Positions 9,561 to 53,167 of a DNA stretch of 64,000 nucleotides are shown piece after piece (position 1 is the first letter of the stretch; the number at the start of each line of letters is the position of its first letter). Source of the DNA: Balneolaceae bacterium (GTDB lineage Bacteria; Bacteroidota; Rhodothermia; Balneolales; Balneolaceae); NCBI GenBank assembly GCA_034521495.1, contig JAXHMK010000022.1, positions 62,001 to 126,000 on the forward strand, in the 5' to 3' direction. Made by a program: the position numbers and the translations under genes. Under the pieces are notes generated by a model, which ran no database searches, had not been told where the DNA came from, and saw only the letters and a program-made list of their open reading frames with translations.

Positions 9561-10022
9561 ATGAAACAATACTTTCACATCAATATCGAACATAAAACCA
9601 GGGAGCGGAGAATTCTAAACGCTTTGTTGGCGCTCGTGACTGGAATTTTAACACTTACCTATCCAAACTTTCTTTACCTGATTGCAGGCGGATATCTCAT
9701 CGCTCTTGCACTGGTATTTATGTATGCCAGAACACCTGCAATTATTGCTGCTATCCCTTTGATAACAGGGGTTCTGATTTTTGTTTTTCCGGAAGTCATT
9801 CCCATCACCTTTGCCGTTTTTCTTGGCTTTTTTGGGGTAATCCTTCTAATGGTATTCCAGTTTTCCATTATGGGATTTCTGACTCTTATCATCGCCATTT
9901 TAATCGTGATGAATCCCGATTCGGTGGCCTATTTTATTGCGGCATTTCTATTACTCTACGGTGCCACAAACCTGATAAAATACTTTCAGAATCCAAGAGA
10001 TCGGTCCGGGTTGGTTCAATGA
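9561..10022 (+). CDS. DUF308/HdeD-family membrane protein
   Basis: 153-residue hydrophobic protein with about five to six closely spaced membrane helices and short loops, in the pattern of DUF308 (HdeD-like) proteins of unknown function. Alternating short helices such as ILNALLALVTGILTLTYP and AIIAAIPLITGVLIFVFPE match the internal repeat of that family. Its last 84 bases, with the stop codon and 9 bases beyond, are duplicated 17.25 kb downstream at 27193-27285, so the gene end serves as the left boundary of the accessory island. Confidence 0.8.
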   Translation: MKQYFHINIEHKTRERRILNALLALVTGILTLTYPNFLYLIAGGYLIALALVFMYARTPAIIAAIPLITGVLIFVFPEVIPITFAVFLGFFGVILLMVFQFSIMGFLTLIIAILIVMNPDSVAYFIAAFLLLYGATNLIKYFQNPRDRSGLVQ

Positions 10023-10031
10023 TTTTTGATC
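9939..10031 (+). repeat. Left 93-bp direct repeat bounding the accessory island
   Basis: Matches 27193-27285 in the same orientation with a single mismatch (C at 9971, T at 27225). It covers the final 27 sense codons and stop of the DUF308 gene plus 9 bases. The position, at a gene's 3' end with the gene kept whole, is what integration of a site-specific element produces. Confidence 0.9.
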
Positions 10032-10037
10032 CTCCAT

Positions 10038-10070
10038 CCCGTCAGACCGCTGCCTTTGCGGTCAGACGGG
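10038..10070. repeat. REP-like palindrome CCGTC-GACCGC family
   Basis: Arms CCCGTCAGACCGC and GCGGTCAGACGGG around TGCCTTT, with one mismatch in the middle of the stem. It lies just inside the left direct repeat of the island. Confidence 0.7.
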
Positions 10071-10487
10071 TAAAGTTGTTGGATGGCTTATAACCTGTTG
10101 CACGATTTAATACGCTGCCAGGATACCCATCGGACGGTAAAAACAGCCATCTGATGGGGAAGTTGAATGTATTAGAAACCCGAGTTTGATTGTTAAATTC
10201 GGATCTTTGAGTTCCCCACCTTCTCAAGGGAGGGGATTTGACTACCAGGGGTGTGTGTCAGGAGAGTTCAGTTGTACATTTTACAGAAGCTCGTTCTGGG
10301 CAAGAAAACCCTGATTCAATCGCTGCACCGAGCCCCTCCTTCATCGAGAGGGGATTGTTACCAAATTCGGCTATTTTTTGGTAAGAGATCAGATGCTGTA
10401 AGACGCTAAACACATACCTCCAGGAAAGGAGGGGACTTTCACTCACTACATTCAATAACTTTTGAATTGAAATCAGCTTTGAAAGAG

Positions 10488-10610
10488 GGCTTTGCAAAAC
10501 CGTGGTTATTGGTCAATCTGAACTCGATTCAGATTCTCCATTCGTCTTTATAGCCAGTATCTGGAGATCCTGAATCAAGTTCAGGATGACGGGCAGAGTT
10601 TTGCAAAGCC
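10488..10610. repeat. MITE-like element with GGCTTTGCAAAAC ends
   Basis: Perfect 13-bp inverted ends (10488-10500 and 10598-10610). The inside is itself an inverted repeat made of TGAACTCGATTCAGA and TGAATCAAGTTCAGGATGAC blocks. It shares its core, but not its ends, with the elements at 34274 and 52148. Confidence 0.75.
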
Positions 10611-10688
10611 TTCTGAAAGTATATGGACTGTTAAGATTCATTCATTTTATTACATTGGGTACAGTAAGAAAACCAAGACATTCAACAG

Positions 10689-13600
10689 ATGACGATTTCG
10701 GAGTACATCAACAACATCAATAAACGCTACAAAACGGGAATTTCAAGAGAGCATGCCTATCGCGGGGATTTGCAGAACCTGCTGGAAGGGATGCTGAAAA
10801 ATGTTCTGGTGACCAATGAACCGGCCAGGATCGAGTGCGGGGCACCTGATTTTATTCTCACGCAGAAAGATATTCCCGTCGGGTACATCGAAGCGAAGGA
10901 TATTGGGGAACCGCTGACCGGCAGCAAGCACAAAGAACAGTTCAACCGCTACAAAGAGTCGCTGCCCAATATTATTTTTACCGATTATCTCGATTTTCAT
11001 TTCTACAGGGATGATGAGTTTGTGGTGTCGGTTCGGATCGCGGAAGTGGCCGGAGATTCAATCCGTGCGGTGCCGGAAAACGAAGACAAATTCCGGCAGA
11101 TGATCAACGATTTTGCCACCCATTCTCTGCAAACGATCAAATCATCCTCCAAACTCTCCAAGATGATGGCAGCCAAAGCACGGCTTCTCTCAGAAATTAT
11201 TGAAAACGCACTGAATGCGGACAAAGAGAGTACAGATCGTGTGCATGAACCCTCTAACACCACACTGCGGGAACAGCTTGCCGCTTTTCAAAATGTGCTG
11301 ATTCACGATATTGACGAGAAAGAGTTTGCCGATATTTATGCCCAGACTATCGCCTACGGAATGTTTGCCGCGCGCCTGCACGACACCACGCTGGAAACCT
11401 TCTCCCGGTTTGAGGCCGCCCGGCTGATTCCCAAATCGAACCCGTTTCTGCGAAAGCTGTTCCAGTACATTGCCGGGTATGATCTGGACGAGCGGATCGA
11501 CTGGATTGTAGATGCCCTGGCCGACATCTTCCGTGCCACCGATGTGGACGGCCTTCTGAGCAATTTCGGCAAATCGACCCAACAAACAGACCCGGTCATA
11601 CACTTCTATGAAACCTTCCTGGCCGAGTTCGATCCCAAATTGCGTAAAAAACGTGGGGTTTGGTACACCCCCGATCCGGTGGTGAATTTTATTGTAAGAG
11701 CAGTGGATGATATTCTGAAGAATGAGTTTGGCTTGAAAGACGGCCTGGCCGATACCTCCAAAACCACCGTGAAGGTGAAAGTACCCACGCACGACAAGCG
11801 CCATAAAGATAATATGGTATTCGAAGAACGGGAAGTACATAAAGTACAATTGCTTGATCCTGTTGCCGGAACCGGGACGTTCCTGGCAGAAGTGATTAAA
11901 CAGATCTACAAAAAATTTGAAGGGCAGCAGGGCATCTGGCCCGACTATGTGGAGAACCACCTGATTCCCCGACTGAACGGGTTTGAAATTTTGATGGCCA
12001 GCTACGCCATGGCCCACCTGAAGCTGGACCTGCTGCTGAAAGAGACCGGCTACGACCGCGAAAGCAGTCAGCGGTTCCGGGTTTATCTGACCAACTCCCT
12101 CGAAGAGCACCACCCCGATACCGGCACTCTCTTTGCCGGATGGCTGAGCGACGAAGCCAATGAAGCCAATCACATCAAACGCGATACGCCGGTGATGGTG
12201 GTTTTGGGGAATCCGCCGTATTCAGTCAGTAGCTCAGTAATAAATCAGAGTTGGATTGAAAAATTATAAGTATGATGTATAAAAAAGATTTGATAGAGAA
12301 GAATATTCAACCACTTTCAGATGATTATATGAAAGTTTATTAGATATGGGCAATATTTTATTAACAAAAATGGTGAAGGTGTTTTAGCTTACATTAAGTA
12401 ATCAACAGCTTTATTCGATGGATTCATACATCGAGAAGATAAGAGAGAAGTTTACTTGAGGAGTTTGATGAGATTTATATACTTGATCTTGCATGGGAAG
12501 CTACAAGAAGAAAGAAATAACCAGATGATGGAAATACAGATGAAAATGTGTTTGATATCCAACAAGGTGTTTCAATTAATCTTTTCATTAAAGAATGTAG
12601 CAATGACAAGAAAATTAGCTGAAGTCTATCAAGGATTTATTTGGTAATAAGAGAATCATAAATATCAAAATTATTTGAACTAATAATCGATTTAGACACA
12701 TAGAATGGAAAGATTAATTAAACGAGACCTGATTATATATTTTTCCTCAAAGATGTCAATATGAATACGAAACAATATAATGCAGGATTTGAATTAGATG
12801 AGCTATTCTATCAAAAATATGGAGCAGGTAACTGCAAACGACAAGAGATGATCTTATTTAGTAGAATTCGAAAAGAATGCTAAAATCAATGAAATATTTA
12901 GAAAATTGCTGAATGATTCTTTTAGCGAAAAAGTATGACATAAAAATTATAAGATAAGAAATTCTATCTTCATATAAGTGCTTGAGAAAATGCAGGAGTG
13001 AAAATTATTCACAGAAATTCAGCTATAAAGAATTACAATTATCGTCTATTTCGATAATAGATAATATTTATTACGATCGATAATTTATTGTGGCCATAGC
13101 TTCTTTACAACATTATGAGCATTTGCTTAAAATTGAAAATAGGGTTTGATCATGGTAAACAGCAATGCCACAGTATGATTGTTCAATCATAATTTGCTTT
13201 GATCACAAAGACAATTACTGATCATAATTCCATTTGTCTTCAACCACGGGGAAGCTGCTTATTTTTCCTGCTTTATTTATACCCTGAAGAATCCACCTCA
13301 GCAAACCCTCGATGGCACACCCGAACGCAAACCCAATCTCGATCCAAAAATCGTCAAGAAGATAGCGGAAGGCTTAGGACTGAAGTTTGTTCCAGAAAAA
13401 GAGATCTCCCCTGGAGGGGAGTACTCCGCGAATGCGGAGGGAGGGGTGTCAGGTAAGGACGATACACCCACCGACTCCGACTCATCGTCGGAGCCACCTC
13501 CCTCAAGGGAGGATCTATCTGCCACAAACAGGAAAACCGGCAAAGTGCAGATCAACGATGAGCAGTACTTCGGCAACGTCCCCTTAAAAGCCTGGGAGTT

Positions 13601-13772
13601 CTACATCGGCGGCTACCAGCCCGCCGAAAAATGGCTCAAAGACCGCCGCGACCGCACGCTGAGCATGGAAGAGATTCAGCACTACCAGAAGATTATTGTG
13701 GCCTTAATGGAGACGGAGAGGTTGATGAGGGAGATTGATGGGGTATTTGAATTACAAAACAATGAGGAATAA
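10689..13772 (+). pseudogene. Type ISP restriction-modification enzyme, broken and internally deleted
   Basis: Type ISP enzymes join nuclease, translocase, adenine methylase and target recognition in one chain. The intact 5' part (526 codons, 10689-12269) holds the PD-(D/E)XK nuclease (GAPDFILTQKDIPVGYIEAKD), methylase motif I (PVAGTGTFL) and motif IV (NPPY). From about 12240 the sequence becomes AT-rich and continues to encode family segments (for example DEIYILDL, ENVFDIQQGVSINLF), but in changing frames with many small indels. At 13300-13405 family sequence returns in one frame (QTLDGTPERKPNLDP), meets a palindromic repeat (13406-13512), and resumes at NRKTGKVQINDEQYF through IGGYQPAEKWLKDRRDRTL to the stop. 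The section normally between VPEKE and that block is missing, so the gene cannot give a normal product. Confidence 0.85.
13406..13512. repeat. Intergenic-type palindromic repeat lying in frame inside the Type ISP gene
   Basis: Contains CTCCCCTGGAGGGGAG, TCCGCGAATGCGGA, CGACTCATCGTCG and CCTCCCTCAAGGGAGG palindromes. The same architecture occurs in non-coding DNA at about 38690-38745. Here the frame reads through it without a stop, joining two parts of the gene. Confidence 0.75.
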
Positions 13773-13773
13773 T

Positions 13774-16615
13774 ATGAATGATCCAAGAGGTTCAGTTTGG
13801 CAGAAGTGGGATTTGCATGTACATACACCAATATCTTATGAACAGAAATTCGGAAATGATTGGGACGAATATGTAAAGCAACTGAAATCAAAGGCTATTG
13901 AGCATGGAATAAATGTAATGGGAGTTACAGATTATTTTTCGATTGATGGTTACTGAGAAACTATGCAATGAGTTTGAACCAAAAGGACAGCCACTACTTG
14001 AATTAAAGAATGAAAAATTTCTTCATTTAATCCCAAATGTGGAGCTTAGATTGGAGAATTTTTGGAGATGAGGACGTATCAATTAATTTACATGTAATAT
14101 TCAGCGAAAAGTTAACTCCTACTGCGATTCGTGATTCTTTTCTTGAAGAACTGGATGTTTCTTTTCAAGGTCATAGCATTTCATGTAAAAAAAATAATTT
14201 AATAAAGATAGGATATGCAGAGGTAAATAAAGGGGCTTATAATGCCAATATTAATATTGATGACTTAACTGAGGGTGCAGAACAAAAATATCTAAAAACT
14301 GCGTTAAGATTAATAACTCTCAACTTCCGAAATATTAAAGATGAGTTATATAATTTTAAAAAAAAGTTGCCAGGTTGGGGCATGAATAAAGATTCTTATG
14401 CTTTTTTAATAGCAGCAAAAGGGCACGGTAGCTTAGATAGTTTACAATGGGTTGATGAACTTACAAAAGATGAACAAGAATTAGGTAGAGCAGGAAATAT
14501 TAGACAATCATTATTACATCATGCTGATGCTTGTTTTACTAATCATGATGGTGATCGTGAATTTTGTTTAGGGTTAAACAATGCTTGTCCCAGTGAAGAG
14601 TATCTTAATCGTTTTAATAGTTTTAAAGCTTGTGTATGGGGATCAGATGCTCACGAATATAAAAATTTATTTCATCCTTCAAATGGTACGACTAAAGATT
14701 ATACATGGATTAAAGCAGATCCAACTTTTGAAGGGTTTAAACAAATTTTGTTCGAACCAAAATACAGAGCACATATTGGAGAAAATGCCCCACCACCACC
14801 ACCAAAATCGATTGATAAATTAACTTTTAGTATTGATCGTAAGCTTTCCGTGAAAAAAGAAAGAAGAAGAAAACGAAGATTTTCGTCTAAGGAGAAATTT
14901 TGATCTAAAATTTAGTCCAAATCTTAATTGTTTAATTGGTGGAAGAGGAACAGGTAAGAGTACAATTCTAAATCTGATAAAATTAAAAACTTCAGAAGAG
15001 ATAAAGGAACTTTACGATGAATCAGAAATAATTGATGAAAATGGAAGTCCTGTTCAATTAAAGGATGCTGTTACAATTGAAGGAACCTCAAGTCATGAAA
15101 TTGAATTTCTAAGTCAAAATGAAATAGAACAATTTGCTTTGAATACACTTGCATTCACAAAAGTTGTATATGAGAGGTTAAAGCAGATTGGGGACAGATA
15201 TGCGCTCAAAGATAAAGGTTCTGAACTGTATGATTTTTTGGATGAATTAAATAGTGCAATTAACAGGCAAGTAAGAAAAATAAGTTTATTGCAAGAGAAG
15301 AAGAGGCTGGAGAATCTTCGTGGTGACAAAAATAAGGAAATAAGCATTCTTAAAGATGAGGACTATTTGGAGCTACAACAAGCAATCAATGGTTGCAGTA
15401 AGGAATTAACTAAGCTTAAAAACTCAAGGAAAAAGCTTGAAAATATGCTTAAAGATATTCAAGAGCTTATCCAAAAGTATAAATTAGAAGATGAAGTGGA
15501 AACGGATGAATTTTCCGAGGTAATCATTGATATTATTAGTACTCTTCAGAAATATTATGACGATCATTGTGAAAGGATAAAAGGACAGAGTGAAAGAGAA
15601 AAGGAATTAGAAAGAGACTTAAAATCTGCAAAAGATGATTTGAAAGACTATCTAACAGATTTAGGGTATGAAGAACAAAACATTAGTAATATTTCGAGTG
15701 CACAAGCTGAATCAAATGAATTGAGTGCAGAAATAGAAAAGATTGATCAAGAGATTAATATTATTGACGAAAGGAATTCATTAGTTTCAATTGATGATAA
15801 TTTAAGAGAAGAATTCGAAGGATTATTGATTCCTCGAATTGAGGAATTGAATGAAATGCTTAAAGCCATAAGTGAAACAACTCAGGAAGTAGAAGAAATT
15901 GCTTTGTCATATGAGTTTGATATAGATCGAGCGTTTGAGGATTTCTGCAAAAAATTCAACAAAGAACAACTTCCAACATTTGAATCTGGAACCTCACTAT
16001 CAGACAAAGATGTAATAGCACTTTTCAGAAATATAATTTCAGAAGATTTTACTATAAAATCAGATGATGAAATTCTTAAATGAGCTAAATGACAAGCGTG
16101 ATAATATCAAAACAAATAAAGTGATTTTCGATTATTTCAATCTAAATCAGGATGAGCATTTGAAGTTACTTAAGATCGTATCATCATCTACATAGAACAA
16201 ATGTAGAAAAATATTTGAAGATCAAGGTAAGCTACTGATGGTAGAGATATTAAAAGTAGTTCATTCGGACAAAGGTGTACTGCTGCAATGGTTATTCTTT
16301 TATCAATGGGAAATAATCCAATAATAATAGATGAACCAGAAGCACACCTCGATAGTGGTTTAATAGCTAAAATATTTGGTTACCCTTATAAAAGAAAGAA
16401 AACAGCATAGGCAGATAATTTTTGCTACTCACAATGCAAATTTTGTGATTAATGGGGATTCTGAACTTATTCATATTTTAACAATGAATGATGATAATTT
16501 GACTGAAATTACTCCCACCACTATTGAAAATATTTCTCATCGTTCAAATTTATACAATCTCGAAGGTGGTGAAGAAGCATTTAAGCAACGTGAGAAGAAA
16601 TATAATTTCCAATAG
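13774..16615 (+). pseudogene. TrlF-like PHP-domain/SMC-like ATPase, frameshifted
   Basis: The N-terminus WQKWDLHVHTP with GVTDYFSIDGY is a PHP phosphoesterase-type domain. After a frameshift near 13955 the frame continues as DEDVSINLHVIFSEKL to about 14890. After another it reads LNCLIGGRGTGKST (Walker A, about 14940), a long acidic coiled coil (15139-16083), and after further shifts an ABC-type C-terminal half with IIFATHNANFVIN (16415-16450) and the final stop. A PHP domain fused to an SMC-like ATPase is the layout of proteins annotated TrlF family; a role in phage defence is suspected, not shown here. The Walker B region (about 16200-16375) is damaged by stops. The DNA is visibly AT-rich compared with flanking genes. 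Confidence 0.75.
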
Positions 16616-16635
16616 ATCTATTTGTTTGTGACCCT

Positions 16636-17118
16636 GAAATCCACCCGAACCTCTTCATCGGCAACGAAACCGATTACGATTTCAAGGTCAAAAACCAAGA
16701 AGGCTGGAGTGTGGTACACGCCTGTAAAGAACCCTGCCATCGTCAGGCGCTTGGGTATTCAGGAAGAGGGGCACCGAAAGATCACCCTGAATATCTGATG
16801 GCTAAAAGGGGTAACAGGCTCATTCTCAATCTGGTGGATGCGAAAGACCCGGCTTTCATTTCAAAAGAGATAATTGACGAAGCACTGTCTTTTATCGATG
16901 AACAGTTGAGCAACGGACAGAAAGTGCTTGTGCACTGTAACCAGGGGCAGAGTCGTTCGCCCGGTATTGGGTTGCTTTATTTGGCGAAAGAAGGCATCAT
17001 CAAAAACAGATCCTTTAAGGAGGCTTTGACAGAGTTTGAAGAGATCTATCCGGGAATGAATATGGCTGGCGGGATGCGCGGGTTTTTGGTGGGGTATTGG
17101 GATGAGTATATGGTGTGA
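16636..17118 (+). CDS. Dual-specificity-phosphatase-like protein (start disrupted)
   Basis: The frame is open from before 16636 and reads [20 protein letters not shown], then [10 protein letters not shown], and near the C-terminus [15 protein letters not shown], the C(X)5R catalytic loop of cysteine phosphatases. Two relatives of the 5' end (21628 and 26322) start ATGACCGAAATCCA; here the corresponding stretch is GTGACCCTGAAATCCA, two extra bases, which puts the original start out of frame. A GTG at 16711 could start a shorter protein of 135 residues that keeps the catalytic motif. Substrate unknown. It directly follows the ATPase pseudogene. Confidence 0.7.
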
Positions 17119-17125
17119 TTAAAAA

Positions 17126-17179
17126 ATGACTGAGTATTTAGCATATATCGATGAATCAGGTGTTCCACAATTTCAATGA
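17126..17179 (+). pseudogene. Remnant of a DUF3800-type gene start
   Basis: Encodes MTEYLAYIDESGVPQFQ and then a stop. The YIDESG opening is typical of DUF3800 proteins of mobile and defence loci. Nothing of the rest of such a gene follows. Confidence 0.45.
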
Positions 17180-17211
17180 AAGTGCCTCTGAAATTTTCTC
17201 CTAATTGAAGT

Positions 17212-18066
17212 TTGACACCGGAGAATTATCAACAAAGTTTGGCGGAAAATAAAAGTTACATATCTGTAAATTCGGTTTTAAAAGTATTAGATACCGGGGA
17301 AGATCCAATCAAAGTATTGGCAGAGGATGAAAATGCTTATCTGATCAAGCATAATATCCGGGAAAACAGTTTCCCAAATCTTGCCCGCGAGTGGATATGC
17401 TACCGGCTTTTCAGGCATTTCAAGGTATCTACACCCAAAGCCGAACTGCTATTCTTTGATCCGATGTTGTTTCAGGAAGAACTTATGTCATTGACCGGTC
17501 GATTTGCAAAACAGATTGTATTTGGATCCAGATGGCTGCAAGCGCGGGATGATCTTAAAGATGAGATCTATTCCGGCAAATCCGACACGAAAGAAAAGCT
17601 GTTGAATCCGTTAGAACTGGCAAAGATTTTAGTGATGGATATATGGTTAAAGAACAGTGACCGTCAATCAGGAAATTTGAATATAATTGTATCCAAACAG
17701 AAGCTCTATGCGATTGATCACTCCGCTACTTTTGACCAGGAGCCATTCATTCGTTTGGCAGAAGCCGACAGAAAAGAGTATTTTGTGGAGCCGGGCGAAA
17801 TCGGGGATTTGATCATTAACTCCAATTATTTTAACTACTATTTTAAGCGGTATCCAAAAGAGTTTGAAAACGCCGGAATAAATCTCTGTGAGAAAATAGA
17901 AGTAACTGATGAAGCGTTGTTGAATAAGATTCTGGATAGCTTGCCTGAAAGCTGGCAAATAAGTAATGAGGAGAAAAAAGCTATTATTGAGTATTTGATG
18001 TTTCGGAAATCAAAACTCAAAGAGTTATTTATCGGGCATCTAAACTTTAACAGACAAAAACCATGA
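17212..18066 (+). CDS. HipA-like kinase-fold protein (HipA_2 family)
   Basis: 284 residues. The C-terminal half carries the kinase-like catalytic motifs: LVMDIWLKNSDRQSGNLNI (catalytic Asp and metal-binding Asn) and LYAIDHSATFD (metal-binding Asp). This pattern belongs to the HipA_2 group of HipA-like proteins, shorter than classic HipA and without its N-terminal subdomain. The start is TTG at 17212, after a short AGGA-like purine stretch; the next Met is near residue 83, too late. It overlaps the next gene by 4 bases (ATGA), so the two are co-translated. It may phosphorylate a protein target, but no substrate can be inferred. Confidence 0.75.
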   Translation: MTPENYQQSLAENKSYISVNSVLKVLDTGEDPIKVLAEDENAYLIKHNIRENSFPNLAREWICYRLFRHFKVSTPKAELLFFDPMLFQEELMSLTGRFAKQIVFGSRWLQARDDLKDEIYSGKSDTKEKLLNPLELAKILVMDIWLKNSDRQSGNLNIIVSKQKLYAIDHSATFDQEPFIRLAEADRKEYFVEPGEIGDLIINSNYFNYYFKRYPKEFENAGINLCEKIEVTDEALLNKILDSLPESWQISNEEKKAIIEYLMFRKSKLKELFIGHLNFNRQKP

Positions 18067-18938
18067 ACTCCCTGATCCGATATCGTATTTTTTATTGGGT
18101 TCCCAATACTCTGTCCGGCGAACGGATAGCGGCAGGACTGTGCCTGTACGACAGGGAAGCGGACCGGCTCGACACGCACTGGATCGGCCAAAGGGAATTG
18201 TCGCGGCTGCAAAAGATATTTTCTTTCAGCAGCAAAGCCGATTCCCAAGATGTATTGAATCTGTTGAGTGAAACGGATGGGAACTGGAAATCCAAGGCTT
18301 ACGATCCTTCATTTTGGAACTACATTGAAAGTTACTGGAATGGAATTGTACAGGTTTCTGAAGAACGTAAACTCTACTATGAAGGCAATGCGTCTGATTT
18401 TTCGCGCAAAAGCGAAATGTTAAAGAACCAATTTTTGCCGCTTTCTGGCCTTAAATCAAAAAGGAAATCCGGTGGTTCGAAAAAAATCACCCGAAATTTT
18501 GAGCGCTGGGTGAAAGAGATAAAGATTGAGGAAAAAGTTACGTTAGGGAAAGAGATCCCGGAGCATGGGAAATACCACCTTCTTAAATCGATCTATCTGG
18601 ATCTGGGGGCAGACAATGGCCAGATGATTGGCTCGGCAGGTATTGACTTTTCATTAACTCACAAAACACTCACCGAAAAAGCACACGCCTACTTTGCCGG
18701 TTTCCAAAGTATCAGAAATGTAGAACGGGGAGGGGATTTCAGTCTTGTTGTCCACAGGAAAGGCAAAGCATACCAATCTATTGAGAAAAAAGATTCTCAA
18801 TTGTATGATGATTTTCGTTACCGGTGCAGGGATTTGAATATCAGAGTTCTTAAACTCGATGAACTGAAAGATTACATAGAAGATCTTTCCGAAAAACCGG
18901 ATTTAAGGCCGCTTGAACTGGAAGAGGTTGAAGAATAA
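18063..18938 (+). CDS. DUF3037-family partner of the HipA-like protein
   Basis: 291 residues. The N-terminus RYRIFYWVPNTLSGERIAAGLCLYD matches the pattern of DUF3037 proteins, which are commonly encoded next to HipA_2 kinases. The central region is basic (KSKRKSGGSKK) and the C-terminus acidic (PLELEEVEE). The ATGA overlap with the upstream kinase gene supports a two-protein unit, perhaps toxin-antitoxin-like. Function of DUF3037 is unknown. Confidence 0.7.
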   Translation: MNSLIRYRIFYWVPNTLSGERIAAGLCLYDREADRLDTHWIGQRELSRLQKIFSFSSKADSQDVLNLLSETDGNWKSKAYDPSFWNYIESYWNGIVQVSEERKLYYEGNASDFSRKSEMLKNQFLPLSGLKSKRKSGGSKKITRNFERWVKEIKIEEKVTLGKEIPEHGKYHLLKSIYLDLGADNGQMIGSAGIDFSLTHKTLTEKAHAYFAGFQSIRNVERGGDFSLVVHRKGKAYQSIEKKDSQLYDDFRYRCRDLNIRVLKLDELKDYIEDLSEKPDLRPLELEEVEE

Positions 18939-18977
18939 GTCATTCTTTTTAAAGAGTTCCTAAAATCTTTATGCTCC

Positions 18978-19344
18978 ATGAATGCAAAAAGTTCTAATAA
19001 TGTCGAAGAAATTCGAAGCGAGTTCCAAAAACTGTTCGAACAATCTGCTGAAGAGCAGGCTGATCACCGGGCACAGATGCTCTCCTATGTTTTCCTGAGC
19101 GAGGCTCAAAAAAGCGATGAATCGTAAAAGCTGAACTCGCAAAAGGCTGGCCAAAGAGATCGGCACATCCGCCAGCTATCTCACACAGCTCTTTCGAGGC
19201 GACCGTCTGTTGAATTTCAAGACCGTGGCGAAAATTGAAGCGGCGCTGGACATCGAATTTAGAGTATCTGTATCACACGATACTGCCACATATCAAAATA
19301 GCGAAGAGTTGAACCTGAACCATTCCCAGGTAAATGAACCTTGA
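18978..19344 (+). pseudogene. Xre-type helix-turn-helix protein, frameshifted
   Basis: The first frame (MNAKSSNNVEEIRSEFQKLF to AQKSDES) stops at about 19126. In another frame the sequence goes on with RLAKEIGTSASYLTQLFRGD and KTVAKIEAALDIEFRVSV, a clear Xre/Cro HTH ending. One or two small indels near 19110-19145 separate the halves. It was probably the antidote or regulator of a lost module. A 32-codon ORF (19342-19440) that follows is unrecognised. Confidence 0.65.
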
Positions 19345-19448
19345 TTGTGGATGTAATTGCATATTCGGCGAGGCAGAAGTATGAGCCAAAAGAGTACATG
19401 AAGAAGAAAGGCGGTCACAATTTTTTCCTTAACCATTAGAAGTTGCCC

Positions 19449-19589
19449 ATCGGCGGCTACCATCCCGCCGAAAAATGGCTCAAAGACCGCCGCGACCGCA
19501 CGCTCAGCATGGAGGAGATTCAGCACTATCAGAAGATTATCGTGGCGTTGATGGAGACGGATAGGATTATGGGGGAAATCGGCTTATAA
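19449..19589 (+). pseudogene. Second copy of the Type ISP gene 3' end
   Basis: 46 codons reading IGGYHPAEKWLKDRRDRTL, then SMEEIQHYQKIIVALMET, to a stop. It is nearly identical in DNA to the 3' end of the Type ISP pseudogene (about 13597-13740). No other part of such a gene is nearby. The following 230 bp to 19821 contains no recognisable gene. Confidence 0.8.
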
Positions 19590-19821
19590 TGAATTGCTCT
19601 CCGAAAAATTCTGACAATGTCATAATTTTCATAAGATAGATACGAATTAAGAGAAATTATTACTACTTTAAAGTATGATTTGATTGACATGTCAGATAAT
19701 AAATAAATACAATCTTCAGCTTTCTTAAGAAATAGTTGATGGAGACAGAGTAAAATTGACGTGTTCACAGACGAATTTAAACTTTGAACACGAAACCGTA
19801 ACCGCCTGAGGAACCTTAGCA

Positions 19822-21006
19822 ATGAAAAATATACTGGAAGAATTGGACCCTGTTGTATTGGGTGAGGAATTAAAGCATGCCAGAAATAAGGCGGGCATGA
19901 CTCAGGAGGAGGTCTCCAAACTTTTGGATGTAGCCAGAACTACGGTTACGGCTATTGAAAAAGGAGAGCGCCGAATTCGCCCGGATGAATTGATCAAGCT
20001 ATCCGAAGCCTTTAACAAAAGTGTTCACGAGTTTTTGAGGGTAAAAAAACCCATTGAATCATTCCAGGTGCAGTTCAGGGCAGCATACAAACGTTCTGAA
20101 AAAGAGAATGACGAAATGAATTCCATCATTGATGAATTTGAAGAACTCTGCCGCGACTATTTGGAGCTGGAGGAACTTGTTTATGGTATGCCGTGGCAAA
20201 ATTATCCTGTGGAATACAAAATTACCGGCTCAAATATTGAACAAAGTGCGGAGAGCATAGCTATCAGAGAGAGAAACCGGTTGGGGTTAGGGGATGGGCC
20301 GATCCCCATGCTGCGGGATATCCTGGAGCAGGATATAGGCCTTCGGATTTTCTATTTAAAAATGCCTGCGAACTTTTCTGAAATGTATAACTATCATGAT
20401 TACCTGGGAGGCTGTATGGCGGTGAATGCAAATCATCCCGAAGTAAGAAGACGTTGGTCTATGAGTCATGGATATGCCCATTTTCTTGTTCACAGGAAAG
20501 GGCCGGTTGTTGATTCAGAGGAAAAACATGTCCGGCTTGAAAAAAATGAACAATTTGCAGATGCTTTTTCAAAACATTTTTTAATGCCTGCAAATAGCAT
20601 ACTTAAAAAATACGATGATATTAAAAAGTCCAAGAATAAATTTACCATTGCGGATCTGTTTATTACTGCCCACTATTATGGGGTTTCACTTGAAGCAATG
20701 ACTCGCAGGCTGGAAGAGATGAAACTGATTGATTTGGGAACCTGGGAGAAATTAAAGAGCCACAATATTCGAATAAAGGAAGAACAGAAAAAACTCAATA
20801 TTGAAGAGTTACCCCAGCGGGATGATATGCTTCCCGTTCGATATCAGTATTTGGCACTGTATGCATTTGAAAAAGGGATGATTACGGAGGGGCAGTTTGC
20901 AAAATTCCTAAGAAAAAACCGTGTTGAAGCCAGAGACTTTGTTATGGAAAATCAATTTGAAATTGATGATGATCTTGAACTTGAACAGCCATTATCCGTT
21001 TTATAA
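19822..21006 (+). CDS. Xre HTH plus ImmA/IrrE-type peptidase-fold protein, catalytic Glu missing
   Basis: 394 residues. Residues 14-70 form an Xre HTH (RNKAGMTQEEVSKLL ... TVTAIEKGERRIRP). Residues 150-260 match the ImmA/IrrE (COG2856) domain, including RRRWSMSHGYAHFLVHR and KNEQFADAFSKHFLMP. Family members have HExxH at this place; here it is H216-G-Y-A-H220, so the catalytic Glu is Gly (codon GGA, one step from GAA). Both zinc-ligand His residues and the downstream Glu243 remain. The protein may bind its partner or DNA without cleaving, or be a recent mutant. The PIN-like gene follows after 11 bases. Confidence 0.85.
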   Translation: MKNILEELDPVVLGEELKHARNKAGMTQEEVSKLLDVARTTVTAIEKGERRIRPDELIKLSEAFNKSVHEFLRVKKPIESFQVQFRAAYKRSEKENDEMNSIIDEFEELCRDYLELEELVYGMPWQNYPVEYKITGSNIEQSAESIAIRERNRLGLGDGPIPMLRDILEQDIGLRIFYLKMPANFSEMYNYHDYLGGCMAVNANHPEVRRRWSMSHGYAHFLVHRKGPVVDSEEKHVRLEKNEQFADAFSKHFLMPANSILKKYDDIKKSKNKFTIADLFITAHYYGVSLEAMTRRLEEMKLIDLGTWEKLKSHNIRIKEEQKKLNIEELPQRDDMLPVRYQYLALYAFEKGMITEGQFAKFLRKNRVEARDFVMENQFEIDDDLELEQPLSVL

Positions 21007-21017
21007 AAGATTAACAA

Positions 21018-21575
21018 ATGACTATTCATTTTGAACAGAAGGGTATCATACTTGATGCGTGTTGTATTATCAATTTGTATGCAAGTTCTGTTATGCAAGA
21101 GGTTTTAGAATCGTTTCAGTTACCTTTTTATGTAGACCGATATGTAAAAGAGAGAGAAGCATTAAAAATAAAAGGAGAAAAGGAAAATGAGTTTATTGAT
21201 ATAGATTTGCTCCCTTTTATCCAGGATAAAATATTGCACGAAGTTTCTCTGTCGGGTGAGGATGAGGTGAATACATTTGTTAATTTGGCGGTTTCACTGG
21301 ATGATGGCGAGGCCAGATGTGGGGCTATTGCTGCTCACCGAAATTTAGTTGTTGCTACGGATGAAAAAGTTGGAATTCGAATATTTTCAGGCTTAGGGCC
21401 ACCGATTTCCACAATCAGTACTCTGGAAATTCTGCATGATTGGTCGGTGAATAAAAATATAACGACCGATAAAATAAGCATGGTTTTGAAGAAGATTGAA
21501 AAAAGAGCAAGCTACCGGCCGGGATCAAAACATGCGTATTTTGAATGGTGGAAAAAACATTATCAAATAGGATAA
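21018..21575 (+). CDS. PIN-like nuclease-fold protein paired with the Xre-ImmA protein
   Basis: 185 residues. The N-terminal IILDACCIINLYAS has the first PIN-fold Asp, and LDDGEARCGAIAAHRNLVVATDE has the central Glu and the later Asp typical of PIN-like nucleases. Arrangement directly after an Xre-ImmA/IrrE gene points to a toxin/antitoxin-like or regulated-defence pair, with the upstream protein as repressor/antitoxin. Four acidic positions look intact, so nuclease activity is possible. Target unknown. Confidence 0.65.
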   Translation: MTIHFEQKGIILDACCIINLYASSVMQEVLESFQLPFYVDRYVKEREALKIKGEKENEFIDIDLLPFIQDKILHEVSLSGEDEVNTFVNLAVSLDDGEARCGAIAAHRNLVVATDEKVGIRIFSGLGPPISTISTLEILHDWSVNKNITTDKISMVLKKIEKRASYRPGSKHAYFEWWKKHYQIG

Positions 21576-21627
21576 AGGCAATTAATTTTTCCTTATTCAT
21601 AATGAATACTTACTGTCTGGACCTATT

Positions 21628-22350
21628 ATGACCGAAATCCAACCAAACTTATTCATTGGCAACGAAAACGACTATGAGTTCAACGTTAAAGACCAGGAAG
21701 GCTGGAGTGTGGTACACGCCTGTAAAGAACCCTACCATCGTCAGGCGCTTGGGTATTCAGGAAGAGGGGCGCCGAAAGATCATCCCGAATATTTAATGGC
21801 AAAAAGGGAAAACCGGCTCATTCTCAAGCTGGTGATTGAAAAAGAACGAGTGCTCACTGAAAATTGGAACAAGCCTCATGGCAGGGGCAACATCGACCCG
21901 GAGAATTTTTCCCCTTATCCCAAAAATCCCATGATAGCCCGCTTCTTTAAAGAAATCGGCCGGGTTGACGAGTTGGGTTCCGGCGTGCGAAATACCTACA
22001 AATATTGCGGCCTCTATACCCCCGGTACTAAACCGGAATTTATTGAAGGCGATGTGTTTAAGGCGATTATACCCATTCAAACCGAACAAGTTAGTGGGGA
22101 AGCTACTGGGGAAGTTAGTGGGGAAGTTCAAAAAGTAGTAAGCGCTTTAGAAGCTGCAATGAAACGTTCAGAAATACAAAATAAACTGGAATTAAAACAC
22201 GATGATTATTTCAGGCTAAACTACATTGAGCCGGCCATAAAAGAAGGTTTCATAGAAATGACATACCCGAACAGCCCCAACCATCCGAATCAGAAATACC
22301 GATTGACGGCGAAAGGTAAAAAGCTGAAGACGCGAATGGAGAAGAAATGA
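21628..22350 (+). CDS. Chimeric ORF: phosphatase-gene 5' end joined to AlbA_2-type C-terminus
   Basis: Residues 1-69 ([18 protein letters not shown] to RLILKLV) repeat the N-terminus of the phosphatase-like gene at 16636, ending before its catalytic loop. From there the sequence changes to [40 protein letters not shown] and a winged-helix-like tail, the C-terminal part of AlbA_2/RecG-like regulators. The join falls in LKLVIEKER. Neither half is complete, so the 240-residue product is probably a recombination by-product, although the frame is open. It overlaps the next ORF by 4 bases. Confidence 0.75.
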
Positions 22351-22757
22351 AAATTAGCAAGGTACACAATAACGGGAAAAATAGAGTGCAGGTGAATAAA
22401 AACGGCTCTTCTGATCCACATTTCGAAACCGATGATGAGCGCACCTATTTCCTGGCGGTTTTGCCGGTTCATCCGGAGGTAAAAATGAGGGGCGAAGCTG
22501 AGGGTCAAGCTCAAGAAAACGACTTAAATGACACTGAAAGAACCATTTTGGATATTTTAAAGCAGGGGCCAAGCTCTACAGATGAAATTGTCAAAGAGTT
22601 GGGATTAAGCAAGCGGACAGGAGCTTTACAGAGAACATTAAAGAGCTTGTTGGAAAAAGAATTCATTGAATATTTGTATCCGGATACACCGCGGCATCCC
22701 GGCCAAAAATATATATTAAGGAAACAGTACCCTAAAACAGATCATAGAGATGATTAG
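22347..22757 (+). CDS. C-terminal remnant of an AlbA_2-type regulator
   Basis: 136 residues. [19 protein letters not shown] then VLPVHPE is the end of the AlbA_2/ATP-binding module of transcriptional regulators in the RecG-like group. It is followed by a winged-helix segment ([20 protein letters not shown]) and a tail [10 protein letters not shown]. The N-terminal AlbA_2 domain is lacking, so this is likely a second partial copy of the gene type seen in the preceding chimera. It overlaps the nuclease pseudogene by 8 bases. Confidence 0.6.
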
Positions 22758-23854
22758 AATTTACCACACCGCCGACCTCCACATCGGCCTCCGATTCAAA
22801 AACCACCCGGAAGCCAGTGAAACTTTAGTTCAGGCCCGCTACGAAACACTTGAAAAATTGGTTGGCATGGCTAATGAGCAGAATGCGGATATTTTTGCCA
22901 TTGCCGGAGACCTGTTCGACCGAACAAGTATGAAGGTGTCTGACATTCAAAGGGTTATTCAGACGATCAATAAATTTGAGGGGAAGTGTGGCCTTGGTAC
23001 TTGCCCGGTAATCACGACTATATCACCGAAGACAGCCAGCTCTGGGACCGGTTCAAAAAAGAGGCAGGAGGAAACGTGCTGGTTTTGGATAAAAAAGAAC
23101 CTGTAGATCTGAGTGAGTATGACCTGAACGCAGTGGTCTGGCCGGCTCCCTGCCACGCCAAACACTCAGCAGAAAACGCGGTGGGTTGGGTGAAAGATGA
23201 AGAGAAAGACCCGGATAAGGTTCATATCGGTATCGCCCACGGAAGTATCGAAGGTGTATCGCCCGATTTTAATCAGCAGTATTTTCCGATGACTGTTCGG
23301 GAGCTGAACAGTTCCGGCGTAGATATCTGGCTGATGGGCCATACCCACATTACTTTTCCAGAAAAACCGGGAAAAAGGATATCGTATTCAATCCGGGCAC
23401 CCCGGAGCCGGACGGTTTCGATTGCAATCACGAAGGCCGGGCGTTTTTGCATACTGTTGATGAAAACAAATCCATCTCAACGGAGATTCTGAGCACCGGA
23501 ACGTATCGGTTCCGCAAAATGGAAAGAAGTTTAAACAGTGCCTCTGATGTAGATAAGCTTTTGGACGAGTTCGAAGATGACGAATATAACCGAATCATGC
23601 TTAAGCTTGCCGTCTCCGGCCGACTGGAGCCTGAACTGTTTGAGAAATGGCGGGAAAAGAGGCACAGCATCCGGGAGGCGGTTCTTGAACTGAAGCTGGA
23701 CGATTCAGAACTCCGGCGAAAAGTAACCGAAGAGCAGATCCGAAAGGAGTTTACTGAAGGGTCTTTCCCCGAACAGCTGCTCTCCTCTATTCCGGAAGAA
23801 AATGAGGACGAACTGCAGATGGCCTATGAACTGATCCGTGAGGTGAAGCAATGA
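22750..23854 (+). pseudogene. SbcD/Mre11-like DNA repair nuclease with two frameshifts
   Basis: The N-terminus [18 protein letters not shown] and IFAIAGDLFDRTS are metallophosphoesterase motifs of SbcD-type nucleases. Near 22985-23000 the frame shifts and goes on with YLPGNHDYITEDSQLWD, HIGIAHGSIEG and IWLMGHTHITFPEKPGK. At an A-run near 23374 a second shift leads to DIVFNPGTPEPDGFD and a C-terminal domain to 23854. Both shifts are explained by losing one or two bases. All catalytic motifs are otherwise present, so an error or a recent mutation is likely. It overlaps the ATPase gene by 4 bases. Confidence 0.8.
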
Positions 23855-26295
23855 AGCTGAAATCGATTAAACTGCACCCGTTTGCCGGTATCCGTGATAA
23901 AAGTATTGAGTTTGACGACGGATTAAATGTTCTGCTTGGACCGAATGAAGCGGGTAAATCTACCATCTACAATGCTATTCTGAACGGACTGCTGACAACC
24001 ACCTCATTAACAACGACAAAAGTGGAAAGTGAAATGGGACGGTTTTTTCCTGCATCGGGAGGGGATGTCATTCGTGTGGATCTGGAATTGCTGGATGAGG
24101 ATCAAAACACCATTCGCATTCGGAAAGCCTGGAAAAAAGGAAATCGAAAGGGGAGTGCTTCTCTTCACCTTGCTGACGGTACAGAGATCACAGACGAGGA
24201 GATAGTTCAGCAGAAAATCGAAGAACTGCTCCCGGTATCTGCGGCGACCCTTCGAACGATCTTGCTTGCGGATCAGTCCGGCCTGCATCGCACCATTCGT
24301 GAAATGGAACAGGAAGATGGGGTCCGCAAGGAGCTGGGAGATATCCTGCGTCAAAATTTGATGGAAACGGGCGGCGTGTCGGTTGACCGGTTCCGTGAAC
24401 TGCTGGACAATCGGTACGAAGAGTATTTCAAACGGTGGGACCGGGATCAGGACTATCCGGAGAAAAACAGGGGTATCAGCAATCCATATAAAACAGGAAC
24501 AGGGAAAGTTCTGGACGCCTATTATCAAAAAGAACAGCTCCGGCTGGACCTTGAAGAGGCCAGGAGGTTTGAAGATGAGCTGGATCAGCTGAATGAACAG
24601 CTTTCGGTGTTGATCAACCGCCAAAAAGAGAAGAAGGAAGAGTTCGACAAACTCCAGCCGCTGAAAAAAGGGATCAGCCAGCGGCAATTGCTGGAACAGA
24701 AACTGGAAACGGCTCAAGAGAAGCGGAAAACCCTGCTTGAGATTAGTCAGCAGTGGCCGGTCATGGAAGATCGTATCAAACAGCTGGAGCCGAAGAAAAA
24801 AGTTCAGCAGGAAAAGATTGAGAAACTTCAGGAGGAACAGAAAAAAGCTCAAGAGAAGCAGCAGGCAAATCAGCTTGAATCCCGCATCAAAAAACTGGAA
24901 CAACTTGTTGAAGATGTAGAGGCTGCCAGGAAGGAAGTAAATGAAGCGAAGAAAGTTGAGGAGGCTGAAGTGAAAAAGCTCCGTGAGCTTCAATCTGAAG
25001 TGAGGAGATTGAATACACAGATTGAGGCTGCTCGACTTACGATAAAAATCCATTCGAAATCGGATGGCTCTATAGAATACTCAGAAGCTGGAAAAGATGA
25101 AGAGACATTAAAGGCCAAATCGGGTGAAGTAATCGAGAAAACAGTCTCCGGTGGATTTACCTTGAAAACCGGGGAACTGAATATACAGGTTATTTCGGGT
25201 GAGGGAGATTTGGAGCAGGTCATAGAAAATTATCAGCACAAAAAGGAAGAGCTAAACACAGTACTTCAAAAGTTTGAGGTGGAATCCGTTCAGGATGCAG
25301 AATCGTTTGCGTCTTTGTATCAACAGAAGCAGCAAAAACTTCAGCAAGCGGAGAAATTATACAAATCTGAATTAGGCGAAGATAACATCAGTGATTTAAA
25401 AGAATCATTGAAAGAGTTTGGCGATTTGAAACAAATTCGCTCATCTGAAGATATTACGGATGATCTTGTTGATGCTCGAACAGAACTTCAGAGTCTAACC
25501 AAAGAAGCGGATGAAGCCGGGGAGAAATTAGAGAAGTGGAAAGAGACGTATGAATCGGTAGAGGATGTAATATTAGAACTGGCGGATCTATCGAAGTCTA
25601 TTAAAGATATAAAAAGGGAAATAGAGCAACTGCCGGAGCTTCCCGAAGGGTTTGAGTCGGCCAACGAGTTTATTGAATACGTTGAGGCAATGGATCAGGA
25701 TATTCGTGACCTTGAAGCGAAGATTAGTAACTATAAAATTGAGAAAGCGAATCTTGAAAAGGATGCCCCCGATACATCCTCTGAGGAGCTTGAAAAGATG
25801 CTGGAAGAAGCGGAGGCTGATTTTGAACGGATTTACCACGAAGCGGAAACGCTGGCTAAGGTCCGGGAACGAACGTTAGATCTGCTTGAATCAATGGATG
25901 CCAATACCTACAGCGGGCTGGAACAGAGCTTTCTGAATTGGGTGCAGCAGATGGTGGGTAATCGCTTTGATACCATACAAATGAACGGAGATTTACCACA
26001 AACCTTTCAAACCGATGACGGCCGACCGCTCACCTATGAAATTCTGTCTCATGGTACCAAAGATATCGTGGCTCTTGCCTGGCGATTTGCGTTAACAGAG
26101 TATTTTCTGAAGGATCAAGCCGGCTTCATTGTTCTGGACGACCCAATGGTGGATATGGACCCGGAACGGAGAAAGATGGCTTCAGAGGCAATTGAAGTGT
26201 TTGCTAAAAAGCAGCAGGTGTTAGTGATGACATGCCATCCGGAGCATGCAAAACAAATAGGTAAGAAAAACAAGAGTGCAATTGAATTTCCATAA
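23851..26295 (+). CDS. SbcC/YhaN-like SMC-type ATPase
   Basis: 814 residues. The N-terminal half of the ABC head has Walker A GPNEAGKST at residues 30-38; a long coiled coil (about 200-690) rich in Glu/Lys/Gln follows; the C-terminal half has the signature-like LSHGTKDIVALAWRFAL and Walker B FIVLDDPMVDMDP. With the upstream SbcD-like nuclease it forms a Mre11-Rad50-type DNA end-processing pair. The middle of the coiled coil lacks an obvious CxxC zinc hook. This group often sits in accessory or defence loci, consistent with the neighbours. Frame intact. Confidence 0.85.
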   Translation: MKLKSIKLHPFAGIRDKSIEFDDGLNVLLGPNEAGKSTIYNAILNGLLTTTSLTTTKVESEMGRFFPASGGDVIRVDLELLDEDQNTIRIRKAWKKGNRKGSASLHLADGTEITDEEIVQQKIEELLPVSAATLRTILLADQSGLHRTIREMEQEDGVRKELGDILRQNLMETGGVSVDRFRELLDNRYEEYFKRWDRDQDYPEKNRGISNPYKTGTGKVLDAYYQKEQLRLDLEEARRFEDELDQLNEQLSVLINRQKEKKEEFDKLQPLKKGISQRQLLEQKLETAQEKRKTLLEISQQWPVMEDRIKQLEPKKKVQQEKIEKLQEEQKKAQEKQQANQLESRIKKLEQLVEDVEAARKEVNEAKKVEEAEVKKLRELQSEVRRLNTQIEAARLTIKIHSKSDGSIEYSEAGKDEETLKAKSGEVIEKTVSGGFTLKTGELNIQVISGEGDLEQVIENYQHKKEELNTVLQKFEVESVQDAESFASLYQQKQQKLQQAEKLYKSELGEDNISDLKESLKEFGDLKQIRSSEDITDDLVDARTELQSLTKEADEAGEKLEKWKETYESVEDVILELADLSKSIKDIKREIEQLPELPEGFESANEFIEYVEAMDQDIRDLEAKISNYKIEKANLEKDAPDTSSEELEKMLEEAEADFERIYHEAETLAKVRERTLDLLESMDANTYSGLEQSFLNWVQQMVGNRFDTIQMNGDLPQTFQTDDGRPLTYEILSHGTKDIVALAWRFALTEYFLKDQAGFIVLDDPMVDMDPERRKMASEAIEVFAKKQQVLVMTCHPEHAKQIGKKNKSAIEFP

Positions 26296-26321
26296 GAGTA
26301 CTTCATCTTATTCAAACTGAC

Positions 26322-26478
26322 ATGACCGAAATCCACACAAGACCTCTTCATCGGCAACGAAAACGACTACGAGTTCAAGGTCAAAAACCAGGAAGGCTGG
26401 AGTGTGGTACACGCCTGCAAAGAACCTTATCATCGGCAGGCGCTTGGGTTTTCGGGCAGTGTGATAAATTCAAAATAG
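26322..26478 (+). pseudogene. Third copy of the phosphatase-gene 5' end
   Basis: Starts ATGACCGAAATCCAC, then one extra base shifts the frame; from about 26340 it reads [36 protein letters not shown] and soon stops at 26478. Only the first 45-50 codons of the gene are present. DNA identity with 16636 and 21628 is high by eye. Confidence 0.8.
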
Positions 26479-26530
26479 TTGCCTGCCGTGATCGTTTTAT
26501 AGTATATTGCTTTTAAATAATCCTATTGTA

Positions 26531-26725
26531 ATGAGTGATAAACGAAAAAACGCAGCCATTTTAGAAAAAAAGGAATTAAAAAAATCAAAACACCTGGTTA
26601 AAGATCAGGATACGGGATTGGTTTTTCTAACTGGCCCCTCCATTACTAAAAAAAAGGTCCAAAAAGATTTTCCGATCGACTCCGATAGAGACACAATTAT
26701 AATTCGCCGCTCAGTAGGTTTATGA
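26531..26725 (+). CDS. Antitoxin-like partner of the PIN toxin
   Basis: 64 residues, strongly basic at the N-terminus (MSDKRKNAAILEKKELKKSK) and ending DTIIIRRSVGL. I do not recognise a known DNA-binding fold. Its size and its ATGA overlap with the PIN gene make it the likely antitoxin, which normally binds the toxin and represses the operon. The start at 26531 was chosen over an upstream frame start (26507) because it fits the spacing better. Confidence 0.6.
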   Translation: MSDKRKNAAILEKKELKKSKHLVKDQDTGLVFLTGPSITKKKVQKDFPIDSDRDTIIIRRSVGL

Positions 26726-27156
26726 ATGTACTGTTTGATAGCAGCGCTTTAGTAGCATTATTAGTGAAAGATCACGATGACCATCAGCGTGTTTACCAAC
26801 TCTATAAAGAGTATGCAGATAGGGAAACAGATTTATTTATTTCTACACATTCCATTGCCGAAGTCTTTAGAACATTAACCTGGGGAGTGGAATATTTAAA
26901 CTATTCAGCCAATGAAGCCCACCAAGCTATTCACTACTCCATACTATCTGTATTTGAAACTGTAGATAGCACCAAGACGGACTATCGACTTGTTTTGGAA
27001 TTTCTCAGACAAAATAATCTCAAAGGGCCAATCATCTATGATGCATTGATAGCCTTCGCATCTGAAAAGGTCAGAGCAAAAGAACTCGTAACATTAAATA
27101 CAAAAGACTTTAGACGTGTTTGGGGACTCACTTCTGCCAATTTGGTAGAACCATAA
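26722..27156 (+). CDS. VapC-type PIN ribonuclease toxin
   Basis: 144 residues with the PIN pattern: MNVLFDSSALVALLV (first Asp), STHSIAEVFRTLT (Glu), IYDALIAFAS (Asp) and TLNTKDFRRVWG (last Asp). VapC-like toxins cut RNA and are held inactive by the upstream small protein. It is the last gene of the island, ending 36 bases before the right direct repeat, a place typical of stabilising modules. Confidence 0.8.
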   Translation: MNVLFDSSALVALLVKDHDDHQRVYQLYKEYADRETDLFISTHSIAEVFRTLTWGVEYLNYSANEAHQAIHYSILSVFETVDSTKTDYRLVLEFLRQNNLKGPIIYDALIAFASEKVRAKELVTLNTKDFRRVWGLTSANLVEP

Positions 27157-27192
27157 GTTTAATTATAAACTATCCATTTTACCTGTTTCATA

Positions 27193-27285
27193 GCGGCATT
27201 TCTATTACTCTACGGTGCCACAAATCTGATAAAATACTTTCAGAATCCAAGAGATCGGTCCGGGTTGGTTCAATGATTTTTGATC
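27193..27285 (+). repeat. Right 93-bp direct repeat bounding the accessory island
   Basis: Copy of 9939-10031. It holds a 27-codon 3' fragment of the DUF308 gene with its stop, and it overlaps by two bases the stop codon of the convergent DUF5694 gene. Removing one repeat and the island would place the two genes end to end. Confidence 0.9.
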
Positions 27286-34004: not shown

Positions 34005-34040
34005 TTGATAAATCTTTACTTCTGTCAATGCATCAACCAA

Positions 34041-53101: not shown

Positions 53102-53130
53102 AGTGATAGATATAGATTTGGGGTTAAAGT

Positions 53131-53167
53131 AAAACACGGTCAAAATTGAAGGTTGTTCAACCGTGTT
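53131..53167 (-). terminator. Terminator-like hairpin after the cupredoxin gene
   Basis: AACACGGT (53133-53140) pairs with ACCGTGTT (53160-53167); on the minus strand a short T-rich stretch follows. It lies between the cupredoxin stop and ric. Confidence 0.5.

Follow-up and report, generated by a model that had tools for sequence, protein, structure and literature searches.

A 17-kb island, pieced together from defence and toxin-antitoxin modules, many of them broken, lies between a DUF308-like gene and a convergent DUF5694 gene in the genome of a Balneolaceae bacterium, and comparison with a sister species confirms that it is a real insertion. The features of the locus are listed in Table 1 by their positions in the window, which is the whole stretch of 64,000 nucleotides (on contig C22) that was analysed. 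The two ends of the island are direct repeats of 93 bp, identical but for one C/T difference. Their coordinates and the single mismatch reproduce the original prediction, and the ORF coordinates agree with its further claim that the left copy keeps the DUF308 gene whole and the right copy leaves a 27-codon fragment that touches the DUF5694 stop codon. The right copy in fact ends 2 bp inside this stop codon (27284-27286). A repeat search of the window extended the pair leftward by 11 bp, to 104 bp at 96% identity (9928-10031 and 27182-27285). A chance origin of a 93-bp match within 28 kb is negligible, and the 93-bp repeat is present in just two copies, with no third, in the whole 4.57-Mb, 22-contig genome.

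It had been proposed that collapsing the two copies would give a simple convergent gene pair, and that relatives should be searched for an empty site with a single copy. Exactly such a pair is present in the sister species, G015: its DUF5694 gene (C127:56315-57166, plus strand) and its DUF308 gene (57178-57636, minus strand) are convergent and 11 bp apart, with a single copy of the gene end at their junction and nothing between the genes. When joined, the island flanks align to G015 continuously through this junction. Of the 28 genus genomes, G015 alone has a close DUF5694 ortholog (79%), and its DUF308 is the closest as well (95%); none of the 27 congeners searched (G015 and 26 other genomes of the genus) has a second DUF308 3' end. 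Two arrangements had been named in advance as contrary to an insertion, namely an empty relative with both copies and the same gene order with the repeat absent; G015 shows neither of them.

Table 1. Features of the island and its flanks (positions in the window)
Feature	Position	Strand	Evidence or remark
Intact DUF308-like membrane protein gene, target, 153 aa	9561..10022	+	Weak Pfam DUF308/DUF3096 matches; G015 ortholog 95% identical
Imperfect repeat extension	9928..9938	+	11 bp, 8/11 match to 27182-27192, 3 mismatches
Left copy of 93-bp repeat	9939..10031	+	Last 84 bp of DUF308-like gene plus 9 bp
REP-like palindrome CCCGTCAGACCGC...GCGGTCAGACGGG	10038..10070		Begins 7 bp past left copy; family recurs in window
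Dispersed repeat of ~130 bp	10482..10624		At least 8 further copies in genome, at 96-100% among the matches listed
Broken type ISP / IIG restriction-modification (RM) gene, 5' part	10689..12269	+	PADLOC REase_MTase_IIG, E=1e-182
RM gene 3' remnant (Type_ISP_C)	13446..13772	+	Pfam PF18135
Broken TrlF-type PHP/ATPase gene, several frames	13735..16615	+	NCBIfam NF045780 on two fragments
Dual-specificity phosphatase (DSP)-like gene	16636..17118	+	Pfam DSPc
HipA-like kinase, candidate defence PDC-M66A	17212..18066	+	Pfam HipA_2, PADLOC
Partner of HipA-like gene (PDC-M66B-like, weak)	18063..18938	+	PADLOC E=0.003
Remnants: HTH gene and DUF3800-like gene end	18969..19440	+	Also beside ISP gene ends in G012
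Second RM 3'-end copy, diverged (89% to 13597-13735)	19441..19579	+	Repeat comparison; same arrangement in G012 C177
HTH + ImmA/IrrE peptidase (RmrA-like)	19822..21006	+	Pfam PF06114, PF01381; PADLOC
185-aa gene directly 3' of ImmA-type gene	21018..21575	+	No Pfam match
Chimeric ORF joining phosphatase 5' end to RecG-like/Fic-like C-terminal part	21628..22350	+	Repeat and Pfam matches
Fic-like C-terminal winged-helix ORF	22347..22757	+	Pfam PF21247
Lamassu-like LmuA/SbcD-type phosphoesterase gene	22750..23854	+	Pfam Metallophos; two frameshifts vs G019 (tblastn, intact G019 protein)
LmuB-like SMC/AAA ATPase, intact, 814 aa	23851..26295	+	PADLOC LmuB, Pfam
Small ORF, putative antitoxin of PIN toxin	26507..26725	+	Position only
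VapC-type PIN-domain protein	26722..27156	+	Pfam PIN, NCBIfam; stop 25 bp before 104-bp repeat
Right copy of 93-bp repeat	27193..27285	+	27-codon DUF308 remnant with stop, plus 9 bp
Intact DUF5694 gene, convergent neighbour	27284..28138	-	Pfam PF18950; 79% ortholog adjoins DUF308 in G015

Relatives of the island pieces occur in other species of the genus at 69-89% DNA identity, every one of them in another context. The 5' part of the RM gene is ~84% identical to an intact 1086-aa gene of G019. The 5' end of the DSP-like phosphatase gene is found three times in the island (16636-16847, 21634-21845 and ~26329-26466), and remnants of it are present in G010 and G012 too. The dispersed repeat near the left end is partly self-complementary (MITE/REPIN-like). 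Judged by position, the 185-aa gene is a possible partner of the ImmA-type gene, and the small ORF is likely the antitoxin of the PIN toxin. In G012 (C177), two copies of an ISP gene 3' end enclose a DUF3800-like gene; the island holds remnants of this at 13597-13735 and 19441-19579, an older gene-end repeat nested inside it.

The absence of an integrase between the repeats had also been noted, and none of the recombinase families tested is represented there. Read-through whole-genome searches detected no tyrosine recombinase (PF00589), Y1 transposase or resolvase (PF00239) within C22:72032-89181, and no resolvase in the whole genome; elsewhere the genome encodes five tyrosine recombinases (on C2, C10, C7, C17 and C4) and 13 Y1 transposases. 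DDE transposases and relaxases were covered by Pfam scans of ORFs, and the scanned island ORFs contain no transposase domain. The island ORFs that were tested include nothing recognisable as an integrase, a relaxase-like gene or a phage structural gene, and the repeat search of the window revealed no inverted repeats pairing both island ends. As for attachment sites and carriers, no tRNA or Rfam attachment site was found in the window, and the DUF308 end is encoded by no viral contig and no plasmid. The DUF308 tail is not conserved across the genus, being common only to this genome and G015.

The same geometry, with unrelated cargo and with unrelated, unique repeats, recurs at other loci of this genome, as seen by self-comparison of 1.16 Mb of it and inspection of its Y1 loci. 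On C10 (275968-277008), 174-bp copies of a convergent ankyrin/POT gene junction (275968 and 276838) surround a RAYT gene that has REP palindromes at either end, and the corresponding junction in G011 is uninterrupted. Also on C10, 161-bp copies of the 5' end of a UvrD-type gene (333973 and 335084, to 335244) enclose an MNT-HEPN toxin-antitoxin pair, with a REPIN-like element at the left boundary of the insert. On C13, 250-bp copies of a vapC end (27210 and 28185) flank a repeat element and vapBC, and on C9, 143-bp copies of the 3' end of a UbiB-type gene (354617 and 355594) flank another RAYT. The UbiB pair, at 79% identity, escaped the scan thresholds, so these counts are lower bounds. At the remaining Y1 transposase loci the flanks are mostly REP/BIME-type repeats, gene ends being found only at the C10 and C9 RAYTs. 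In 400 kb of G011, the sole low-frequency control, no gene-end case was found.

One gene 3' end occurs three times on C9 (79674, 79950 and 82553, within 78711-82662), with a 2.5-kb insert of two genes between the last two copies. It is present twice in G015 (C127:159789-161097), its copies are conserved at the amino acid level, and the structure is old, shared and accreting. A 353-aa gene has a two-copy arrangement in common with G015. In G015 itself, the 3' end of a P-type ATPase gene (129 bp, 99%) is duplicated, its copies lying on either side of 175 bp of palindromic intergenic DNA (C127:52715-52843 and 53019-53147). This gene is the ortholog of window 32010-34040, whose frame is seemingly shifted near the 3' end relative to G015 (window 32010-32060), giving a different C-terminus. 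In G019, 242-bp copies of the 3' end of a VOC-family gene enclose the intact 1086-aa ISP RM gene, and no other gene between them is intact. Related cargo in G019, G012 and the island is thus surrounded by different repeats, a finding that favours serial accretion over a single site-specific attachment system. This genome also contains large direct duplications, at C22:147625-161034 (6.7 kb, 97%) and C13:66579-86585 (5.8 kb, 99%; 3.0 kb, 97%), which suggest that it is prone to recombination.

The differences between the copies of a pair are informative as to their origin. The neutral expectation for the synonymous fraction of differences is about 0.2-0.28. Against this, synonymous and nonsynonymous differences number 22/5 at UbiB (P=2e-11), 14/5 and 10/4 at the 353-aa gene, 8/5 at UvrD, 13/14 at VOC and 6/3 at POT, whereas the excess is absent in vapC (3/8) and the ankyrin fragment (0/2). 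A duplicate made upon insertion would turn non-coding and lose the synonymous bias; the strong excess therefore implies that, for the most part, both copies were still coding when they diverged and so belonged to different lineages. Judged by these counts, most of the diverged sibling copies look like alleles from two lineages rather than a duplication made on insertion, and the simplest reading is that one of the two copies at such a locus is another lineage's allele of the gene, brought in along with the cargo. Later gene conversion could keep the fragments coding-like and so mimic this signal, an alternative raised by the sharing of the 353-aa gene arrangement with G015. At UbiB, comparison with G015 and G011 singles out neither copy as the foreign one.

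The DUF308 copies, with 1/93 differences, have too few for an allele test, although over 104 bp there are three synonymous differences and one nonsynonymous (P=0.04), a weak signal. The DUF308 genes of this genome and G015 differ at 35 of 67 four-fold sites, and against that distance the 1/93 between the copies marks the repeat as young or homogenised. At least part of the decay of the cargo appears to predate the repeat, in that long internal segments of the intact G019 RM gene are missing from the island's version and two frameshifts interrupt LmuA.

Of the three origins offered by the original prediction (a cargo remnant, use of an integrase encoded elsewhere, or other recombination), the last fits best, given the recurrence of the geometry with unrelated repeats. 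We put at about even the chance that additive homologous recombination, e.g., single-crossover integration of imported recircularised DNA, made the DUF308 island. A fragment from a close relative, in which a DUF308 3' end was joined to the cargo, would have entered the cell, been trimmed and had its ends joined into a circle. This circle would then have crossed over once within the ~100 bp in common with the chromosome, leaving the gene, its end, the cargo, an end remnant and the neighbour in this order, with nothing lost and the target gene whole. Additive recombination would account for the geometry, the intact target, the arbitrary inner boundary, the absence of a recombinase, the arbitrary nature of the cargo and the allelic copies. 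As the DUF308 copies differ at 1/93, the donor would have been conspecific, or the copies were later converted. In Escherichia coli conjugation, 56 of 60 recombinants had a partial duplication of the homologous segment, the 14 sequenced being 109-950 bp, and these duplications were ascribed to a single crossover with a trimmed, recircularised molecule (PMC3240628). Transformation can yield duplications via partial homology as well (PMC3784515). A broader reading, to which we give somewhat less than even chances, is that throughout the genus insertion did not make the long target duplications, which would instead be alleles of the target gene end that came in from outside, and that defence and toxin-antitoxin cargo hitchhikes on short gene-end homology, accreting serially without a recombinase of its own. 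The same imported-allele reading perhaps extends to wherever insertion with long target duplication occurs.

The island may instead be the remnant of a site-specific integrative element (CIME-like), whose tyrosine integrase was lost or acts in trans, with the DUF308 3' end as attachment site and the repeats as attL and attR. The attL/attR-like repeats at a gene end, on which the original prediction based its view of the geometry, do stand, and their position at a gene 3' end is classic; five tyrosine recombinases are encoded elsewhere in the genome, and integrative elements with a codon-conserved gene end in attP are known (phage 21 at icd). It is nevertheless disfavoured and, in our assessment, a good deal less probable than additive recombination, because the DUF308 tail is unconserved, the RM cargo has a different repeat in G019 and gene-end repeats elsewhere are unrelated. 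The lack of integrase, relaxase-like or phage structural genes among the tested island ORFs, of an integrase at the sibling insertions, and of the DUF308 end in viral contigs and plasmids also tells against it. A true target-site duplication, in which staggered cuts ~100-250 bp apart were filled in around the cargo, perhaps with help from REP/RAYT, we regard as unlikely. In its favour, several left boundaries have REP-like palindromes immediately inside them, gene-end repeats enclose two of the RAYT genes themselves, and the DUF308 copies are 99% identical even though G015 differs at 12 of 84 bases of this gene end. But decay after insertion would show no codon bias, contrary to the strong synonymous excess in most of the diverged pairs; intergenic DNA in this genome is rich in REPs, so finding them at boundaries may be chance; and relatives of IS200/IS605 are reported not to produce larger target duplications (PMC2817692). 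All 28 genomes of the genus lack Ku, which makes end-joining capture (NHEJ) of the cargo unlikely. Microhomology at the joints is confined to one edge of the DUF308 pair (9/15), the other gene-end pairs scoring 0-6/15.

The island might also have arrived ready-made, with both repeats formed in another strain and spread by a double crossover in the flanking genes. Decay in the island (RM segments lost, LmuA frameshifted) far exceeds the divergence of the repeats, and the nested internal gene-end repeats speak of a long history; yet with such a transfer the repeats would still have to be explained, only in a different strain, and we consider it improbable. An assembly artefact joining DNA at the 93-bp repeat is the most far-fetched of these explanations, since the locus is on one 263-kb contig of a 22-contig assembly, the copies differ by one base and their flanks differ, and sibling copies that are 10-20% divergent would not be confused by an assembler.

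How integrase-free defence islands move is largely unexplained, and the pattern called insertion with long target duplication has been on record since 2000. The present locus and its siblings extend it beyond Helicobacter, to a 17-kb island and to several types of cargo, and the recurrence of the layout around other cargo suggests that genes are acquired by a route without an integrase, as already noted in Helicobacter. Synonymous excess between the copies offers a simple sequence test of allele import versus duplication at insertion.

Among known systems, a transposon would have a transposase and terminal inverted repeats, neither of which was found at the island by the Y1 search, the Pfam scans of ORFs and the repeat search. 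CIMEs, which derive from ICEs or IMEs, resemble the island in that direct repeats at a gene 3' end flank cargo that lacks an integrase. In contrast to them, no related integrase-bearing element with the same attachment site was found here (27 congeners, viral contigs, plasmids), and the repeats differ between insertions of related cargo. Phage 21 and e14 integrate at the 3' end of icd, where an incoming codon-conserved 3' end restores the gene. The DUF308 gene would similarly have been restored by an incoming 3' end, but phage 21 and e14 have an integrase of their own and insert at a single fixed site. Single-crossover integration in E. coli gives the same product geometry, with repeats (109-950 bp) that are part of a gene end; that case is a laboratory suicide plasmid, whereas ours is a natural genomic island interpreted from its sequence (PMC3240628).

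By the features tested, the DUF308 island belongs to a known kind, "insertion with long target duplication", described in Helicobacter pylori in 2000. According to passages of PMC3874152 and of PMC1643837 (citing Nobusato et al. 2000, Gene 259:99, and Furuta et al. 2010), RM systems insert with long, variable target duplications on the order of 100 bp. As far as those passages describe the H. pylori insertions, these and the DUF308 island both have RM cargo without a known link to a mobile element, no recombinase, direct repeats of variable length (here 93-104 bp at DUF308 and 129-250 bp at other loci) and an empty site in a related genome, which is the single-copy site of G015 in our case. 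The H. pylori cases in these passages are RM genes, whereas the DUF308 insert is a composite island of 17 kb with siblings that carry RAYT, toxin-antitoxin pairs and sensor genes; and the passages of PMC3874152 and PMC1643837 on H. pylori report no allele-like copies such as those at several sibling loci here. The size of the island, its composite nature and the allele-like sibling copies are thus what this locus adds to the known kind.
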